The notes under the pieces: generated by a model
The model's database searches: none
What the model was told of the DNA's origin: nothing
The model's input: only the letters and a program-made list of their open reading frames with translations
Source of the DNA: Brevundimonas sp.
Lineage (GTDB): Bacteria > Pseudomonadota > Alphaproteobacteria > Caulobacterales > Caulobacteraceae
Direction of reading: 5' to 3'
Assembly: GCF_030656255.1 (NCBI RefSeq)
Contig: NZ_JAUSOE010000036.1
Span: 1-64,000 of the forward strand
Length of the DNA: 64,000 bases
Translations under genes and position numbers: made by a program
Shown here: positions 35,042 through 47,112 of the stretch, one piece after another
How positions within the stretch are numbered: position 1 is the stretch's first letter
How the letters are laid out: every line of letters begins with the position of its first letter

Positions 35042-35923
35042 TCAGGCGCGCATCAAACGCCTGCACAGGTCATCCAGCTGTTCCAGCGAGCCATAGCGGA
35101 TCGTCAGCTCGCCCTTGCCGCTGCGGTCGTTCAGCTGGACATTCAGGCCCAGAGCGTCGGCCAGATCCTGTTGCAGGGCGGCGACATCGGCCGCCCCCTC
35201 CCCGCTTTCGACCGGCTTGGGCTTGACCGGTTTGGGGCCTTCCGCCGCGCGCCGCGCCAGGGCCTCGACCTGACGAACGTTCAGGCCTTCGTTGTAGGCC
35301 TGTTCAGCCAGCGCGGGGGCATTGGGCGCGGTGATCAGGGCGCGGGCGTGACCGGCCGTCAGCTTGCCGTTGCGAACGTACCAGAGCACTTCTTCCGGCA
35401 GCTGCAGCAGGCGCAGGGTGTTGGCGATGTGACTGCGGCTCTTGCCGACAATGCCCGCCACCTGGTCCTGGGTACGGCCGAACCGCTCCATCAGCACGCG
35501 ATAGGCGTCGGCCTCCTCCAGCGGATTCAGGTCGGCGCGCTGGACGTTTTCGATGATGGCGACTTCGAACACCTCGACGTCGTCCATCTCGTGGACGACG
35601 ATCGGCACCTCGGTCAGGCGCGCCGCCTGAGACGCGCGCCAGCGGCGCTCGCCGGCGATGATCTGCCAGACCCCGTCCTCGCCAGGCTGCGACCGGACCA
35701 GGATCGGTTGCAGCACGCCCTTGTCGCGGATCGAGGCCGTCAGTTCTTCCAGATGTTCCTGGGTGAAGATCTTCCGTGGCTGATCGGGATTGGGCTTGAG
35801 GCTCTCGATCGGCACGCGTTGAACGCCTGACGGCAGGGTCGCGCCCGCCGCCGTCGGCGCCTCGACGGCCTCGCCCATCAGGGCGGACAGACCGCGTCCA
35901 AGACCTCTTTGTCGTTCAGCCAA
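35042..35923 (-). CDS. parB: Chromosome partitioning protein ParB
   Basis: RQRGLGRGLSALMGE, NPDQPRKIFTQEHLEELTASIRDKGVLQPILVR, AGERRWRASQAA, GKSRSHIANTLRLLQLP. Confidence 0.97.
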   Translation of the reverse strand: MAERQRGLGRGLSALMGEAVEAPTAAGATLPSGVQRVPIESLKPNPDQPRKIFTQEHLEELTASIRDKGVLQPILVRSQPGEDGVWQIIAGERRWRASQAARLTEVPIVVHEMDDVEVFEVAIIENVQRADLNPLEEADAYRVLMERFGRTQDQVAGIVGKSRSHIANTLRLLQLPEEVLWYVRNGKLTAGHARALITAPNAPALAEQAYNEGLNVRQVEALARRAAEGPKPVKPKPVESGEGAADVAALQQDLADALGLNVQLNDRSGKGELTIRYGSLEQLDDLCRRLMRA

Positions 35924-35974: not shown

Positions 35975-36805
35975 TCAGGCGGCCAGTTTCAGCCGCTGGC
36001 GTTCGCGCTTCACCACTTCCTTGGCCAGGCGCAGATAGGCCTGGCTGCCCGCACATTTCAGATCATAAATCAGGGCCGGCTTGCCGAACGAGGGCGCTTC
36101 GGCCACGCGGACATTGCGAGGGATGACGCTGTCATAAACCTTGTCGCCGAAATGGGCCCGGACATCATTGGCCACCTGGCCTGAAAGGGCGCTGCGGCGA
36201 TCATACATGGTCAGGACCAGGCCCTGGATTTCCAGCGCAGGGTTCAGGCTTTGCTTGACCATGTCTATGGTCCGCATCAGCTGGCTCAGGCCCTCTAGAG
36301 CAAAGAATTCGCACTGAAGCGGCACCAGAACCGCATCCGCGGCCGCCATGGCGTTCAGCGTCAGCAGGTTCAGGGAGGGCGGACAGTCGATCAGCACATA
36401 GTCATACGCGGTAGGGCCGTCGTCATGCGCCCGCAAGGCGTCGCGCAAGCGATAGGAGCGGCGATCGGCCTGGCTCAATTCGATCTCAACGCCGGACATG
36501 TCGGCGTCGGACGGCACGATCCACAGGCCGGGCACCGTCGTCTGAACCGCAGCATCATCGACCGAGCGCTGATCGACAACGACATCATAAATGGTGACGC
36601 GGCGTGTTTCACGTGGAACACCCAGACCGGTCGAGGCATTGCCCTGCGGGTCCATATCTACGATCAGGACACGCTTGCCGATGGCGGCCAGGGCGGTGCC
36701 GAGATTGATGGCGGTCGTGGTCTTGCCCACCCCGCCTTTCTGGTTGGAGACGGCAAGAACGCGGGCAGGCAGTTTGCTAGTGCTGGGGGCGGGCACGTCG
36801 AACAC
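35975..36805 (-). CDS. parA: Chromosome partitioning ATPase ParA
   Basis: VLAVSNQKGGVGKTTTAINLGTAL deviant Walker A; VLIVDMDPQGNASTGLG; LIDCPPSLNLLTLNA. Confidence 0.97.
   Translation of the reverse strand: MFDVPAPSTSKLPARVLAVSNQKGGVGKTTTAINLGTALAAIGKRVLIVDMDPQGNASTGLGVPRETRRVTIYDVVVDQRSVDDAAVQTTVPGLWIVPSDADMSGVEIELSQADRRSYRLRDALRAHDDGPTAYDYVLIDCPPSLNLLTLNAMAAADAVLVPLQCEFFALEGLSQLMRTIDMVKQSLNPALEIQGLVLTMYDRRSALSGQVANDVRAHFGDKVYDSVIPRNVRVAEAPSFGKPALIYDLKCAGSQAYLRLAKEVVKRERQRLKLAA
36605..36620. promoter_or_regulatory. parS: parS-like site TGTTTCACGTGGAACA (inside parA)
   Basis: 15/16 match to TGTTTCACGTGAAACA. Confidence 0.85.
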
Positions 36806-37409
36806 TCCGGACTGTCACGATGCGGCCGCGCGGGTCGCTTTGCGACGGGGCCAGTTCAGCCTCGAGATGCCAGGATTTCCGCGCTTCAATCAACTCGGAT
36901 TCGGCCTTCTCCCCCTTCAGGAACAGACCTTGTGCACCCCTTTGGAAGTAGGGCTGTGCATAACCTAGCAATCGCTCCATCGGGGCGACGGCGCGCGCGG
37001 TGACGATATCGCATTTGACCGTCTGCTCCTCCGCCCGCCCATTAATGACCGTCGCCGGCAGGTCCATGGCGTCGACGATTTCCTGCAAGAACCGGCAGCG
37101 TTTACCCAGGCTGTCGATCAACCAGACATGCGCCCCAATCCTGTCTTTCAACAGAATGGCCAGGACGACGCCCGGGAAGCCGGCGCCCGCGCCCAGGTCG
37201 GCCCAGGTGAGAGCCTCAGGCGCATGAGCCAAAAGCTGGGCGCTGTCCCAGGCATGCCGGTTCCAGAAGTCCGGCAGACTGTCGGGACCCACCAGATTCA
37301 TCACCGAATTGGCCTCGCCCAGCCGGATTCGAAAATCCTCCAGGTCCGCCATCTGCTGAGGGGTCGCACCGGCCTTGATCTGAAAGGCGGTCTTTTCGGC
37401 ATCCAACAT
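36777..37409 (-). CDS. rsmG: 16S rRNA (guanine527-N7)-methyltransferase
   Basis: NRHAWDSAQLL, TWADLGAGAGFPGVVLAILL, DSLGKRCRFLQEI, VTARAVAPMERLL. Confidence 0.95.
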   Translation of the reverse strand: MLDAEKTAFQIKAGATPQQMADLEDFRIRLGEANSVMNLVGPDSLPDFWNRHAWDSAQLLAHAPEALTWADLGAGAGFPGVVLAILLKDRIGAHVWLIDSLGKRCRFLQEIVDAMDLPATVINGRAEEQTVKCDIVTARAVAPMERLLGYAQPYFQRGAQGLFLKGEKAESELIEARKSWHLEAELAPSQSDPRGRIVTVRSVRRARPQH

Positions 37410-39301
37410 CAGGCGGCGACCCCGCCTTGAACCGAGGGCTTCGGCGCCTTCTTCACATGCGCAAGTAGGGCGGTCAGGGCGCCGGGGGTCATGCCTTCGA
37501 TCCGCCCCGCCTGGCCCAGGGTACGGGGCTGAACCCTCGACAGTTTTTCCTTCACCTCGTTCGACAGGCTGCCGATGGCGGCATAGTCGAGATTCGAGGG
37601 CAACAACAGGCCCTCCTCGGTTCTCAGGGCTTCGGCGTCTACCGACTGACGATCCAGGTAGTTGGCGTAGCCGGCGTCGATCTCCACCTGCTCGCGCACC
37701 TCGGCGTCCCAGTCGGCAATGACAGGATAGGCCTTAACGAAATGATCCAGGCTCACATCCGGGAAAGCCAGCAGCTCCCGCATGGAACGCCGCCGGCCGT
37801 CTGCGTTCACCGGAATGCCCAGCGCATTGGCCTCCTTGGGCGTGAACAGGGTTTCACGTGAAACAAGACCGGCCTCGGACAGTTTTTGGGCCTTAATCTC
37901 AAACCGGCTCCGACGCTCCGACCCCACGATCCCCAGCTCTATCGCCAGCGGCGTCAGCCGCTGGTCTGCATTGTCGGCCCTCAAGGTCAGCCGATATTCC
38001 GCTCGGCTGGTAAACATCCGATAGGGCTCCGTCACCCCCCGAGTCACCAGATCGTCGATCATCACCCCGATATAGGCCTGGTCACGCCCCAGGATCACCG
38101 GCGCGCGGCCACCCGCCGTTCGCGCCGCATTCAGGCCAGCCATCAAACCCTGGGCCGCAGCCTCCTCGTAACCCGTGGTGCCATTGATCTGGCCGGCCAG
38201 GTACAGGCCGGGGCGCTTCTTGACCTCAAGTGCCGGGCTCAGTTCTCGCGGGTCGACGTAGTCGTATTCGATGGCGTAGCCGTAGCGGAACACCTCGACC
38301 GCCTCCAGCCCAGGTATGGTGCGGAGAAACGCCAGCTGGGTCGGCTCCGACACGGAGGTCGAGATACCGTTCGGATAGACGGTGGGATCATCCAGACCTT
38401 CCGGCTCCAGGAAGATCTGATGGCTGGTCTTATCGGCGAACCGTACGACCTTGTCCTCGATCGACGGGCAATAGCGAGGGCCCCGGCCTGACAGCTTGCC
38501 GCCATAGGCCGCGCTCTCACCCAGGTTCTCGGCGATGATGCGGTGGGTTTCCTCGGTCGTATGGGTCACGCCACAGGCGATCTGCGGCACGGTGATTGCG
38601 TCCGTCATGAAGGAGAAGGCGGAAGGCGTCTCGTCCGCCTGCTGCATCTCCAACCGATCCCAGGCGATGGTTCGTCCATCCAGCCGCGCTGGGGTGCCGG
38701 TCTTTAGACGTCCCATCATCAGATCGGCCGCATGAAGATCAGCGGCCAAACCCGTCGAGGGATCCTCGCCATGACGGCCGGCCGCAATCCTTTCGTCGCC
38801 ACGATGAATGACGCCGTTCAGGAAGGTGCCGGTCGTCAGGACCACGGCGCCCGCCCTGATCTTCTCCCCTGCCCCCGTCGTCACGCCAACCACGCGGTCG
38901 CCGTCGAGGATCAAGCCCTCGGCCGTGCCCGCCCTCAGGCTCAGGTTCGGCGTCTGGGCCAACTCCGCCTGCATGGACTCGCGATACAGGCGGCGGTCGA
39001 TCTGACTTCGGGGGCCGCGCACGGCTGCGCCTTTGGATCGATTCAACAGTCGGAACTGGATACCTGAAACATCGGCCAGCCGCCCCATAATCCCGTCCAG
39101 CGCATCGATCTCACGCACCAGATGGCCCTTGCCCAGGCCGCCAATGGCGGGATTGCACGACATCTCGCCAACGGTTTCGAGCTTCTGGGTCAACAACAGG
39201 GTGCGCGCGCCAGCACGGGCCGAAGCGGCTGCGGCTTCACAGCCGGCGTGACCGCCGCCAATGACGACGACGTCGTAGGAAATCTCGATTGGGGGGTTCA
39301 T
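37409..39301 (-). CDS. mnmG: tRNA uridine-5-carboxymethylaminomethyl modification enzyme MnmG (GidA)
   Basis: [76 protein letters not shown]. Confidence 0.97.
37850..37865. promoter_or_regulatory. parS: parS-like site GGTTTCACGTGAAACA (inside mnmG)
   Basis: Perfect 14-bp core GTTTCACGTGAAAC at 37851-37864. Confidence 0.85.
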
Positions 39302-39384
39302 CCCCGCCACATAGTCCAGATGGACGGTTTTCGCTATACCGCACACCGCGGCATCGCTTCGAAGATCGGTGGTATTACCTAAGG

Positions 39385-39400
39385 TGTTTCACGTGAAACA
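39385..39400. promoter_or_regulatory. parS: Perfect parS TGTTTCACGTGAAACA between mnmG and mnmE
   Basis: 16/16 palindrome. Confidence 0.95.
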
Positions 39401-39406
39401 CCGGTA

Positions 39407-40714
39407 TTACTTGCCAATGCAGAAGGACGAAAACACCTGGCCAAGGATATCTTCAACGCCAATCGCCCCTGTCACCCGCGACAAGGACTCGGCCGCCCGT
39501 CGCAGGTCCTCACCCGCCATCTCCGGCGCAATGTCCAAGGCCCGTCTTCCTGACTCGACAGAAGCCAGGGCCTCGTTCAGACGCAGACGGTGACGTTCTC
39601 TCGTAATCGCTGGAAAATCGGCGCCGGACAGATCCTGCGCCAATCGCGCCGCGATCCAGTTGTGCAGAGCGGAGAGACCCTCCCCGCTTCGGCTGCTGAC
39701 CTCTATTCTCTCAAAACCGCCGCTTGGAACAGAGCCGCCTAAATCCGCCTTGTTGGCTACGACGAGGTCGCCAGGCTTGGCATATGCGGCCGCCACCCCA
39801 TCAGGATCTCCGGGCGCCCTGACCCAAAGACGCAGATCCGCTTGTTCGGCCCGCATACGCGCCCGTCGCACGCCTTCCGCCTCGACAAGGTCAGTGCTCT
39901 CTCTCAGGCCGGCCGTATCGGATAAGGTCACCGCATAGCCGCCAATCACCAGGTCGGCGTCCAGGACATCACGCGTCGTCCCGGCAATGGGCGTCACGAT
40001 AGCCGCCTCGCGTTCGACCAGAGCGTTGAACAGCGACGACTTGCCCGCATTGGTTTCGCCGATCAGGACGATCCGATAACCGTCACGCACCCGCTCGCCC
40101 CGCCGCCCTGTATCCACCGCGCGCCGTAAATCATTCGCCAATCGGTCCAGCACAGGCCCGGCTGTTCGCGCCAGATTATCGGGCACATCTTCGTCCGGAA
40201 AATCGATCTCCGCCTCGACCAAGGCCAGGGCGTGGAGCAGGTCGCGGCGAAAGCCGGAATAGGTCTCGCTAAGCTTCCCCTCCAGTTGGCCCAGGGCCTG
40301 CCGCGCCTGGGCGGTCGTCTCGGCGTCGATCAGGTCCGCAACCGCCTCGGCTTGGGCGAGATCCATTCGCCCGTTCTGGAAGGCGCGCCGGGTGAACTCG
40401 CCCGGCTCCGCAGGCCTCACACCAAGGGCGATCAGCGCCTGGCTCGCCGCCTCGACCACGGCGCGCCCACCGTGCAGATGCAGTTCGGCCGCATCCTCGC
40501 CGGTATAGGAGTTGGGGGCCACGAACCGCAGCACGAGGGCTTGGTCGATGTGGGCGCCGTCATGGGTCAGGTCGCGGACCGAGGCCATGCGCGGCTTCAG
40601 CCGCCCCGCGCCCATGGCGGCCAGAACCGGCTCAACCGCCGGCCCCGACAGTCTCAAAACGGCGATTGCTCCCCGACCGGGAGGCGTAGCGAGGGCGAAG
40701 ATGGTGTCAGTCAT
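39407..40714 (-). CDS. mnmE: tRNA modification GTPase MnmE (TrmE)
   Basis: TIFALATPPGRGAIAVLRLSG, GETNAGKSSLFNALVERE, IAGTTRDVLDAD, C-terminal CIGK. Confidence 0.97.
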   Translation of the reverse strand: MTDTIFALATPPGRGAIAVLRLSGPAVEPVLAAMGAGRLKPRMASVRDLTHDGAHIDQALVLRFVAPNSYTGEDAAELHLHGGRAVVEAASQALIALGVRPAEPGEFTRRAFQNGRMDLAQAEAVADLIDAETTAQARQALGQLEGKLSETYSGFRRDLLHALALVEAEIDFPDEDVPDNLARTAGPVLDRLANDLRRAVDTGRRGERVRDGYRIVLIGETNAGKSSLFNALVEREAAIVTPIAGTTRDVLDADLVIGGYAVTLSDTAGLRESTDLVEAEGVRRARMRAEQADLRLWVRAPGDPDGVAAAYAKPGDLVVANKADLGGSVPSGGFERIEVSSRSGEGLSALHNWIAARLAQDLSGADFPAITRERHRLRLNEALASVESGRRALDIAPEMAGEDLRRAAESLSRVTGAIGVEDILGQVFSSFCIGK

Positions 40715-40759
40715 GATCCTGTTGTCTCCTCCCCACCCCGTGCGGAGGAGACGTGGTGT

Positions 40760-40984
40760 TCACTTCACTGCGGCTTCCATAAGCCTGCGGAACTGGTCCT
40801 GGGCCTGAAGCCCGAAACTGGTCCAGGTCTTCATCAGTTCGTCGGGCTGCATGGCGGCCACATTGGCCTCCATCCGCTTCTGCATCTCGGCCACCATCGC
40901 CTCGTTCAGGGGGGTGACGTCGGGCAGGCCCAGGAAGGCCCGCGCCTCGGCCGGGGTGCAGTCCACTTCGACATTGATCTTCAT
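40760..40984 (-). CDS. DUF6489 family small protein
   Basis: MKINVEVDCTPAEARAFLGLPDVTPLNEAMVAEMQKRMEANVAAMQPDELMKTW... Confidence 0.8.
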   Translation of the reverse strand: MKINVEVDCTPAEARAFLGLPDVTPLNEAMVAEMQKRMEANVAAMQPDELMKTWTSFGLQAQDQFRRLMEAAVK

Positions 40985-40996
40985 CGAACCCTCTCC

Positions 40997-41012
40997 TGTT
41001 CCACGTGAAACC
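40997..41012. promoter_or_regulatory. parS: parS-like site TGTTCCACGTGAAACC (between DUF6489 gene and rho)
   Basis: 14/16 match; core CACGTGAAAC intact. Confidence 0.7.
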
Positions 41013-43667: not shown

Positions 43668-44725
43668 GCCGCATCCTTGCGCTGACGATAGGGGCAGGCC
43701 TTCCAATCCGCCTTGCAGCCCGGCCCAAAGGGCGCGACGCCAGTCCGCCCCAAGGCGCCGACCGTCGCATCGGCCAGGGCGTCGATGAACAGCGGCGCCG
43801 TCCCGACGGCCGGCGCCCTCAAATACAAACTGACCCCTTTTTCGTGGGCCAGTTCACCGTATTCGATATCCAGTTCGACCAGGGTCTCGATATGTTCGGA
43901 GACGAAGGCGATGGGGGTGATCACGACCCCGACCCCGTCCCGACCGGCCTGTTCGATGGCCTCGGGCGTCGACGGGCCCAGCCATTTCATCGGCCCGACG
44001 CGGCTCTGGTAGCAGAGGGCGTGATCGATCGGCCCCCGGTCGCGTTCGATAGCGGCGACCACGGCGGCCACGGTCGTCTCGACCTGTTCCTGATAGGGGT
44101 CGCCCTTGCCGCTCACCAGTTTCTCGGGGATGCCGTGGGCGGAAAACAGCACCCGAACCGGTCCCTCCCCCGCCTCGTCCAGCTTCGCTCCGATGGCCTG
44201 GGCCTGGGCCTCGACCCAGCCGTCGGCGCGGGGATAGCAGCAGACGGCCCGACTGACGCCGGACCCGGCATAGGTCTCGTTCCAGACCTTCAGCGAGGAC
44301 TGGGTCGTGGTGGTCGAGAACTGCGGATACAGCGGCAGCAGCACCACTTCATCGGGCCCGAAGGCCGCCACATCCACCGCAGTCTCTTCCGTAAACGGAT
44401 GCCAGTACCGCATGGCGATGAAGACACGCACCTCATCCCCGCCAAGGCGCCCGTTCAGAACCGCCTCCAGGGCCTCAGCCTGGCGGCGGGTGCCGGGCAA
44501 CAGCGGCGAACCACCCCCCATCAGGGCGTAGTTGGCCTGGGCGCTGGTCTCTCGCCGGCTGGAGATCAGCTTGGCCAGGGGCGTTCGCGCAAATCCCGGC
44601 AGGCCGATGATGGCCGGATCATTGAACAGATTGAACAGGAAAGGCTTCACCGAGGCCTGATCATCCGGTCCGCCCAGATTGAACAGCACCACCGCGATAC
44701 GGCGACCTTGCGAGGTTTGGGTCAT
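43664..44725 (-). CDS. hemH: Ferrochelatase
   Basis: VVLFNLGGPDDQASVKPFLFNLF, LFSAHGIPEKLV, CYQSRVGPMKWLGPST, PIAFVSEHIETLVELDIEY. Confidence 0.96.
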   Translation of the reverse strand: MTQTSQGRRIAVVLFNLGGPDDQASVKPFLFNLFNDPAIIGLPGFARTPLAKLISSRRETSAQANYALMGGGSPLLPGTRRQAEALEAVLNGRLGGDEVRVFIAMRYWHPFTEETAVDVAAFGPDEVVLLPLYPQFSTTTTQSSLKVWNETYAGSGVSRAVCCYPRADGWVEAQAQAIGAKLDEAGEGPVRVLFSAHGIPEKLVSGKGDPYQEQVETTVAAVVAAIERDRGPIDHALCYQSRVGPMKWLGPSTPEAIEQAGRDGVGVVITPIAFVSEHIETLVELDIEYGELAHEKGVSLYLRAPAVGTAPLFIDALADATVGALGRTGVAPFGPGCKADWKACPYRQRKDAA

Positions 44726-45780
44726 TGCGCGCCGATCCTCTTCAGAACCCGTTCGACATGGTCGATGGGCACGTCCGGCAATATGCCATGACCCAGGTTG
44801 AACACCCACGGCCCCTGGCCCCAGGCCTCCATCAGCTGATCCACCCGGCGGTCCAGCAATTCGCCCCCGGCGCGCAGCAACAGGGGGTCCAGGGCGCCCT
44901 GGATCGGCTTGATCTGCTGCACCCGTTTGCCGACCTCCAGCGGACAGGCGGTGTCCAGGGCGACGGCGTCGACCTCAACCTCCTGCGCATACCGCTCTGC
45001 AAGCGCCGCAGAGCCCCGAGGGAAGCCGATCAGGGGCACGGTGACACCCAGCTCCCGGGTGCGCTTCACAAGCGCCTGGTGGGGCTTCAGGACCAGTCTT
45101 TCGAACAGGTCGTCCGGCAGACCCTCGGCCCAGCTCTCGAAGATCTTCAACACCTGGGCGCCGGCGTCGGCCTGCATCTTCAGATACCGCGCCGTGGCCT
45201 CGACCAGAACCTCCAGCGTCTCGTCCACCCGCTTGGGATCGGCATAGGCGTAGGTCCGGGCCTGGGCGCGCTCGCCCTTGCCGATGGTCCGGTGCTCGCC
45301 GTCCAGCATATAGGTGGCCACCGTCCAGGGCGCGCCGGCGAAACCGATCAGGGCGCGTTCCGGCTCCAGGGCCTTGCGCACGATCGACAGGGTCTCGCCC
45401 ACGGCCGACAGATGCGCGCCGGCGTCGGGCGCCAGTTCCGCCATCCGGCCGGGGATCGGCATTTCGCCCAGCCGAGGCCCCTCGCCGGTCTCGAACCAGA
45501 CGTCCTGACCCAGGGCGCGCGGGATCAGCAGAATGTCCGCAAACACGATGGCCGCGTCGAAGCCGAACCGACGCATCGGCTGAAGCGTCGCCTCAGCCGC
45601 CATCTCGGGGTTCAGGCAAAAGGCGATGAAGTCCGGCGCCTCGGCCCTGAGCCGACGATACTCGGGCAGATACCGGCCCGCCTGGCGCATGAACCAGACC
45701 GGCGGGCGCTCCAATCTCTCTCCCCGAAGAGCCCGGATCATCATCGGCGTCTGAGCGGGGTTCGGGGTCTGATCGGTCAT
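44722..45780 (-). CDS. hemE: Uroporphyrinogen decarboxylase
   Basis: PPVWFMRQAGRYLPEYR, IVFADILLIPRALG, GFAGAPWTVATYMLDG, NLGHGILPDVPIDHVER. Confidence 0.97.
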   Translation of the reverse strand: MTDQTPNPAQTPMMIRALRGERLERPPVWFMRQAGRYLPEYRRLRAEAPDFIAFCLNPEMAAEATLQPMRRFGFDAAIVFADILLIPRALGQDVWFETGEGPRLGEMPIPGRMAELAPDAGAHLSAVGETLSIVRKALEPERALIGFAGAPWTVATYMLDGEHRTIGKGERAQARTYAYADPKRVDETLEVLVEATARYLKMQADAGAQVLKIFESWAEGLPDDLFERLVLKPHQALVKRTRELGVTVPLIGFPRGSAALAERYAQEVEVDAVALDTACPLEVGKRVQQIKPIQGALDPLLLRAGGELLDRRVDQLMEAWGQGPWVFNLGHGILPDVPIDHVERVLKRIGAQ

Positions 45781-46029
45781 GCAGGACGATTAAGGTCACA
45801 GCCCCCCGCTCTCAATCCCTAATCAGATTAAGAATTAAAAGATTCGAAGTGGCAGGTAGGGCGGTGGAACGGCGGGGATGGTTTGGCGGTCGTCGGCGGA
45901 ACAAAAGCGGATATCCACGACACACCATGGCTTAACGGGGATGTCGAACAGCCCTATCCCGGCGGTGGACAATCCCTAATGAAACCTTAACGCCCAAGGC
46001 TTTGCGGGGGTCTGAGGCTGTGAACGGGG

Positions 46030-46043
46030 TTAAGCGTCGTTAA
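46030..46043. promoter_or_regulatory. Candidate CtrA box TTAAGCGTCGTTAA (N6 spacing)
   Basis: Two TTAA half-sites within the putative origin. Confidence 0.5.
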
Positions 46044-46056
46044 CCTTCCATTAGGA

Positions 46057-46065
46057 TTTTCCACA
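46057..46065 (+). promoter_or_regulatory. Candidate DnaA box TTTTCCACA
   Basis: 8/9 match to TTATCCACA. Confidence 0.55.
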
Positions 46066-46230
46066 GCCGAGCCGAAACCGGTTGTCCGCCTTGGGACGAA
46101 CCGCTGTCGAACCGACGCCGCCGTCCACCGTCATCCCCGCTCGCGACCGCGCCTATGACCCGCTAAGGAGAACGGCGCCCCGACGGTCCCTCGCCGTCCC
46201 CCATTTTTCAACAGGGAGTCGACAGACCGA

Positions 46231-47112
46231 ATGAGCCCCGCGCGACCCTCCGGCGCCCGTCCCGGCCCCACCCGTCTGGCCACCTATTTTCACGTCCATC
46301 TGGTCTCGGATTCGACCGGTGAGACCTTGAACGCCATGGCCAAGGCGGTGACGGCCCGCTTCGACGGCGTCATTCCGATCGAACACATCTACGCCCTGGT
46401 CCGGTCCGAGAAGCAGATGGAGCGTGTCCTGCAGGAGGTAGAGGCGGCGCCCGGCGTGGTTCTGCATACTTTGGTGGACCGTGATCTGCGTGAACAGCTG
46501 GAGGACGGCTGCCGGCGGCTGGACATGCCCCAGATCGGCGCCCTGGATCCCCTGGTCGGGGCCATGTCCCGCTATCTGGGCGCGGCTCTGTCGACGCGGG
46601 TGGGCGCACAACACGCTCTGGATCACGACTATTTCAACCGCATCGCCGCCCTGGACTTCGCCATGGCCTATGACGACGGGCAGGGGTCGCTGGAACAGCT
46701 GGAGGGCGCCGACGTCGTCCTGTGCGGCGTCAGCCGGACGTCCAAGACCCCCACCTGCATCTATCTGGCCCACCGCGGCATCCGCGCCGCAAACGTGCCC
46801 TTGGTGCCGGGCCAGGAGGACGGCGAACGGCTGACCAAGCTGAAGAACCCTCTGGTCATCGGCCTGACCGTTTCGCCCGACCGTCTGGTCCAGATCCGCC
46901 GCAACCGGATCGACAATCTGAACGCCAGCCAATCCTCCAACTATACCGACCAGGACGCCGTCCGCGACGAGACCATCAAGGCCAAACGCGCCTTCGCCCG
47001 GCGCGGCTGGCCCACCATCGACGTCACCCGTCGCTCGGTGGAGGAGACGGCGGCCGCCATCACCAACCTGCTAAGCGAGCATCGCAACCACAAGATCGGG
47101 ACAAGCTGGTAA
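46231..47112 (+). CDS. ppsR: Pyruvate, water dikinase regulatory protein (DUF299 kinase/pyrophosphorylase)
   Basis: FHVHLVSDSTGETLNAMAKAV, GVSRTSKTPTCIYLAHRGIRAANVPLV, TRRSVEETAAAI. Confidence 0.94.
   Translation: MSPARPSGARPGPTRLATYFHVHLVSDSTGETLNAMAKAVTARFDGVIPIEHIYALVRSEKQMERVLQEVEAAPGVVLHTLVDRDLREQLEDGCRRLDMPQIGALDPLVGAMSRYLGAALSTRVGAQHALDHDYFNRIAALDFAMAYDDGQGSLEQLEGADVVLCGVSRTSKTPTCIYLAHRGIRAANVPLVPGQEDGERLTKLKNPLVIGLTVSPDRLVQIRRNRIDNLNASQSSNYTDQDAVRDETIKAKRAFARRGWPTIDVTRRSVEETAAAITNLLSEHRNHKIGTSW

Follow-up and report, generated by a model that had tools for sequence, protein, structure and literature searches.

A predicted Cori-type chromosomal replication origin in the hemE-ppsR intergenic region of Brevundimonas

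Where does chromosome replication start in Brevundimonas? The question is raised by a 450 bp gap at positions 45781-46230 of a 64,000-nucleotide stretch of Brevundimonas DNA (the window), which lies between the divergent genes hemE and ppsR and had been proposed as the functional origin in an earlier reading of the letters alone (the original prediction). In Caulobacter crescentus the origin, Cori, was mapped experimentally between hemE and COG1806 (PMC1914354). Synteny with Cori, an excess of DnaA and CtrA sites, conservation, a cluster of parS sites and, in relatives, the turning points of skew and octamer polarity converge on the gap, which is therefore read, with high probability, as the predicted chromosomal origin of Caulobacter Cori type; the earlier proposal is thus supported at the level of prediction. 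The result adds a further, well supported member to a known class of origins. It is ordinary in kind and an expected feature.

The gap and its boundary genes are as follows.

44722-45780, minus strand: hemE, uroporphyrinogen decarboxylase, left boundary gene (TIGR01464, above cut-off)
45781-46230, no strand: gap between hemE and ppsR, predicted chromosomal origin of Cori type
46231-47112, plus strand: ppsR (DUF299, COG1806), right boundary gene (NF003742, above cut-off)

The original prediction had these boundaries exact to the base. The protein encoded by ppsR shares 97% identity with its homologues in Brevundimonas mediterranea and B. intermedia, and the window was therefore assigned to Brevundimonas, family Caulobacteraceae. 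hemE adjoined ppsR directly in every one of 80 Brevundimonas loci, and the same held for all 30 loci sampled across the family, among them that of the own genome.

Site content and conservation of the gap

Features within the gap were located by motif scan and by conservation, and are listed from left to right.

45809-45848, no strand: AT-richest 40 bp (70% AT), candidate unwinding element
45863-45871, minus strand: DnaA-box-like CGTTCCACC, weak candidate (motif scan)
45911-45919, plus strand: DnaA-box-like ATATCCACG, in the conserved island CGGAACAAAAGCGGATATCCACG at 45897-45919 (motif scan, conservation)
45964-45972, minus strand: DnaA-box-like TTGTCCACC, DnaA part of module 1 (motif scan, conservation)
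45976-45990, minus strand: CtrA-type TTAA-N7-TTAG, CtrA part of module 1 (motif scan, shuffles, genome-wide count)
46030-46043, plus strand: CtrA-type TTAA-N6-TTAA, overlapping the CtrA site of module 2 (motif scan, shuffles)
46040-46054, plus strand: CtrA-type TTAA-N7-TTAG, CtrA part of module 2 (motif scan, genome-wide count)
46057-46065, plus strand: DnaA-box-like TTTTCCACA, DnaA part of module 2 (motif scan, conservation)
46080-46102, no strand: conserved island around TCCGCCTTGGGATGA (conservation)
46121-46129, plus strand: DnaA-box-like CCGTCCACC, at the edge of a conserved island at 46124-46146 (motif scan, conservation)

No other 40 bp window in the 64 kb is as AT-rich as the one at 45809, which sits within a 102 bp conserved island (45782-45883) and contains a conserved GATTC (GANTC, CcrM-type site) at 45841-45845. 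Every element that the original prediction had listed was found in place, namely the AT-rich tract CTAATCAGATTAAGAATTAAAAGATTC (45819-45845), the three boxes at 45911, 45964 and 46057, and several TTAA motifs, of which the gap holds seven; the boxes at 45863-45871 and 46121-46129 had been missed, and the arrangement of the TTAA motifs as CtrA-type sites had been overlooked.

Chance levels were taken from 1000 dinucleotide shuffles of the gap. TTAA occurred 7 times (1.3 expected), DnaA boxes with a TCCAC core 5 times (0.55 expected) and full CtrA sites 3 times (0.02 expected), counts that were reached in 0 of 1000 shuffles in each case. Boxes within two mismatches of TTATCCACA numbered 4 (0.63 expected, p 0.002). 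The DnaA-box array thus exceeds chance, as for a Cori-type origin. GANTC was not enriched (2 observed, 2.0 in shuffles). The gap held no exact W-box (TCCCCA) and no sigma-70-type promoter was found; a single terminator-like hairpin was at chance level. A plasmid search was also made and returned matches to the hemE coding sequence only.

Two of the CtrA-type sites are TTAG variants of TTAA-N7-TTAA, and the third has N6 spacing. The two modules have CtrA sites that are inverted repeats of each other (18-nt arms, 83%), and in both modules the order is CtrA site, 2-3 bp, then DnaA box. In Cori both G-boxes adjoin or overlap CtrA sites (PMC4468827), and the order seen here matches that adjacency. 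The genome encodes a CtrA orthologue that is 87% identical to the query, a C. crescentus CtrA sequence.

In the gap 48.9% of positions were invariant across 16 close genomes, compared with 14.5% of fourfold-degenerate sites in ppsR and 19.2% in hemE. The two-module layout, including its CtrA part, recurs in other Brevundimonas groups with a different sequence. Conserved stretches were also found between and beyond the modules: CTGTGAAC lies between module 1 and the TTAA-N6-TTAA site; in relatives the TCCGCCTTGGGATGA island contains, on its minus strand, the weak-box-like TCATCCCA; the box at 46121-46129 reads GATCCACC in most near relatives; and the rightmost island (46124-46146), with the pattern TCCACC.TCATCCCCGCTCGC, also contains CATCCCC. 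The continuation of conserved islands downstream of module 2 is consistent with a small RNA resembling C. crescentus CcnA (PMC8959179), which would be encoded in the gap in addition to the origin and would explain part of the conservation. A 182-nt gene would not fit between the two CtrA modules, whose separation is only about 50 bp, and the Rfam search returned no match for the gap; such an RNA is compatible with an origin here and is itself rather unlikely.

The own genome (3.35 Mb) contained 14 distinct TTAA-N7-TTAR places. The total of 20 strand hits is not far above the 13 obtained with a reversed control pattern; the hemE-ppsR gap was the sole place with two such sites within 1 kb. When 2.8 Mb of two relatives was scanned for at least two CtrA sites together with at least two DnaA boxes per 450 bp, only the hemE-ppsR gap of B. 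albigilva (G002) was recovered, from a sample that did not include the corresponding gap of the other relative (G001).

By homology with Cori (PMC4285127, PMC4468827, PMC6399470), DnaA would bind the array of sub-optimal boxes, oligomerise toward the AT-rich tract beside hemE and melt it, with the helicase loaded there. Phosphorylated CtrA would bind the TTAA-N7-TTAG sites, each separated by 2-3 bp from one of the two central DnaA boxes, and keep DnaA off, and may in this way hold back replication in cells of the non-replicating type. The new origin would then be moved by the parABS system close by.

Chromosomal setting and the alternative positions

The partition genes and sites lie to the left of the gap.

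35042-35923, minus strand: parB
35975-36805, minus strand: parA
36605-36620, no strand: parS, 1 mismatch, inside parA
37850-37865, no strand: parS, 1 mismatch, inside mnmG
39385-39400, no strand: parS, perfect, at the mnmG/mnmE junction
40997-41012, no strand: parS, 2 mismatches, in the mnmE-rho gap

The original prediction had described the gap and its flanking genes correctly and had overlooked parABS. The four parS sites (36605-41012, 4.8-9.2 kb left of the gap, beside parAB) are all that the own genome contains. Four is also the total in G001 and G002, where the sites are equally far from the locus, and in the B. mediterranea genome.

Since the own genome is a draft of 170 contigs, guanine-cytosine (GC) skew was drawn in the complete relatives G001 (48% sampled) and G002 (B. 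albigilva, 0-2.39 Mb). This was one of the checks proposed with the original prediction, and the cumulative troughs of both relatives contain the locus, though they are several hundred kilobases wide. In G001 a flat trough at 0.88-1.38 Mb contains the locus (0.994 Mb) and there is a clear maximum at 3.08 Mb; the trough of G002 is similarly broad. Within the 64 kb window the slopes are weak and the cumulative minimum, near 53-55 kb, does not place the origin. The octamer GGGCAGGG, whose form is like that of the FtsK-orienting KOPS of Escherichia coli, is strand-biased about 5:1 on the arms of G001; its sites inside the window are too few for polarity. In G002 its cumulative polarity reaches a minimum of -98 at 1.818 Mb and stands at -97 at the locus (1.738 Mb). 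Among the strand-asymmetry signals of the relatives, which agree with the locus, this one alone turns fairly sharply.

dnaA is not adjacent to the predicted origin in Brevundimonas: it is on another contig of the own genome (C15, L084), and its distance from the locus is 139 kb in G001 and 618 kb in G002. Many bacteria of other phyla have origins linked to dnaA. Initiation at dnaA, with the gap merely regulating hemE and ppsR, would fit that habit, and in G001 dnaA lies at the edge of the skew trough. In G002 the octamer polarity is -78 at dnaA (1.135 Mb) and still falling beyond it. The dnaA loci held no CtrA sites and no box cluster, with no more than 1-3 DnaA cores in any 450 bp, and all parS sites lie by hemE-ppsR. 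A skew minimum at dnaA had been named with the original prediction as the outcome that would speak against it; dnaA was found on the still-declining slope in both complete relatives. An origin at dnaA was therefore rejected on distance, on the octamer polarity that keeps falling past the gene and on its site-poor loci, and is regarded as extremely improbable. The skew and octamer data give good support for the hemE-ppsR locus and strong evidence against dnaA, and do not pinpoint the origin.

The breadth of the trough bears on a second alternative, in which the gap is only a divergent promoter region controlled by CtrA and DnaA and the origin is elsewhere in the roughly 500 kb trough, for example nearer parABS. 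CtrA and DnaA double as transcription factors, and in relatives ppsR is preceded by a conserved GC-rich leader and by GCTATAG, which resembles a -10 element. An AT-rich tract, a DnaA array and several CtrA sites occur together nowhere else in the scanned sequence, and the position is the same as that of the mapped Cori. We consider this alternative very unlikely.

Several observations weigh against a Cori-type origin in the gap. The GC-skew minimum misses the locus by 137 kb in G001, where the trough is broad, and by about 240 kb in the sampled 0-2.39 Mb of G002; the GGGCAGGG polarity of G001 is mixed over 1.0-1.4 Mb and not sharp. The gap has three CtrA-type sites (two ending TTAG) where Cori has five, and no exact match to the C. 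crescentus G-box TGATCCACA, its boxes being TTTTCCACA, TTGTCCACC and ATATCCACG. No match in the gap was found to the E. coli-type consensus for integration host factor (IHF), from which the Caulobacter site itself deviates. Brevundimonas further differs from C. crescentus in the distant dnaA and the four parS sites. The exact TGATCCACA was taken as a species-level detail of C. crescentus and not as defining the Cori type. Shared with Cori are the position between hemE and DUF299 (RP001), the AT-rich tract, the weak DnaA boxes, CtrA sites beside the main boxes and parS within about 8 kb (PMC1914354, PMC4468827, PMC6399470). The predicted origins of Rickettsia prowazekii and Wolbachia resemble the gap in their hemE boundary and in having DnaA and CtrA-type sites (PMC1914354), with different site numbers and, in Wolbachia, without the hemE-COG1806 linkage. 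E. coli oriC shares the DnaA array and AT-rich element (PMC4285127) and differs in having no CtrA, other neighbours and TTATCCACA boxes.

Contrast with the B. diminuta-bullata clade

Eleven loci outside the window (L052, L058, L059, L061, L065, L067, L070, L071, L075, L078 and L081) belong to B. diminuta, B. bullata, B. guildfordensis and related species, which form one clade in a hemE plus ppsR tree, joined by the genome locus L239. No strict CtrA site was found in the hemE-ppsR gap of any of the 11, nor in their 6-11 kb loci, and with one mismatch allowed each gap had at most one CtrA-type hit, within the AT tract. Among the other Brevundimonas, 65 of 69 loci have at least one CtrA site. Both module positions of the clade retain DnaA-box-like sequence without the CtrA halves, and CtrA itself is intact (88-89%). 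The clade gaps contain 6-11 GGCGCC palindromes (mean 8.0 against 1.3 from flank density; other species mean 2.3) and 5-8 GANTC sites (mean 6.3 against 0.35 from flank density; other species mean 2.4). L239, from a divergent Brevundimonas, lacks CtrA sites in its gap and has 11 GGCGCC there.

In B. diminuta ATCC 11568, among the matches listed, GGGCAGGGCG switches strand sharply at 0.68 Mb of scaffold C5. This switch probably marks the terminus and puts the opposite point near 2.36 Mb, on an inferred scaffold order. ppsR is at about 2.435 Mb and parS at 2.440-2.444 Mb, and the origin seems to have stayed at hemE-ppsR.

The loss of the motif from the clade gaps may reflect a loss of CtrA binding. 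We tentatively propose, as a possibility somewhat short of an even chance, that the clade retained CtrA but released its origin from direct control by the protein, and that GGCGCC and CcrM (GANTC) sites replaced the CtrA halves, which would imply another regulator of initiation. A search of open-licence papers returned no description of the loss of CtrA sites at the origin of this clade. In C. crescentus, weakening all five origin CtrA sites perturbed the cycle only mildly in laboratory culture (PMC4468827).

The predicted origin of this Brevundimonas is placed by several independent lines of sequence evidence, and its two inverted CtrA/DnaA modules offer a compact, strongly conserved footprint for origin studies beyond Caulobacter. 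The main interest lies mostly in the clade contrast rather than in the window origin. If the proposal is true, the species of the window would stand for the CtrA-controlled state in a comparison with the clade. The contrast offers a natural experiment on the extent to which the cell cycle requires CtrA at the origin.
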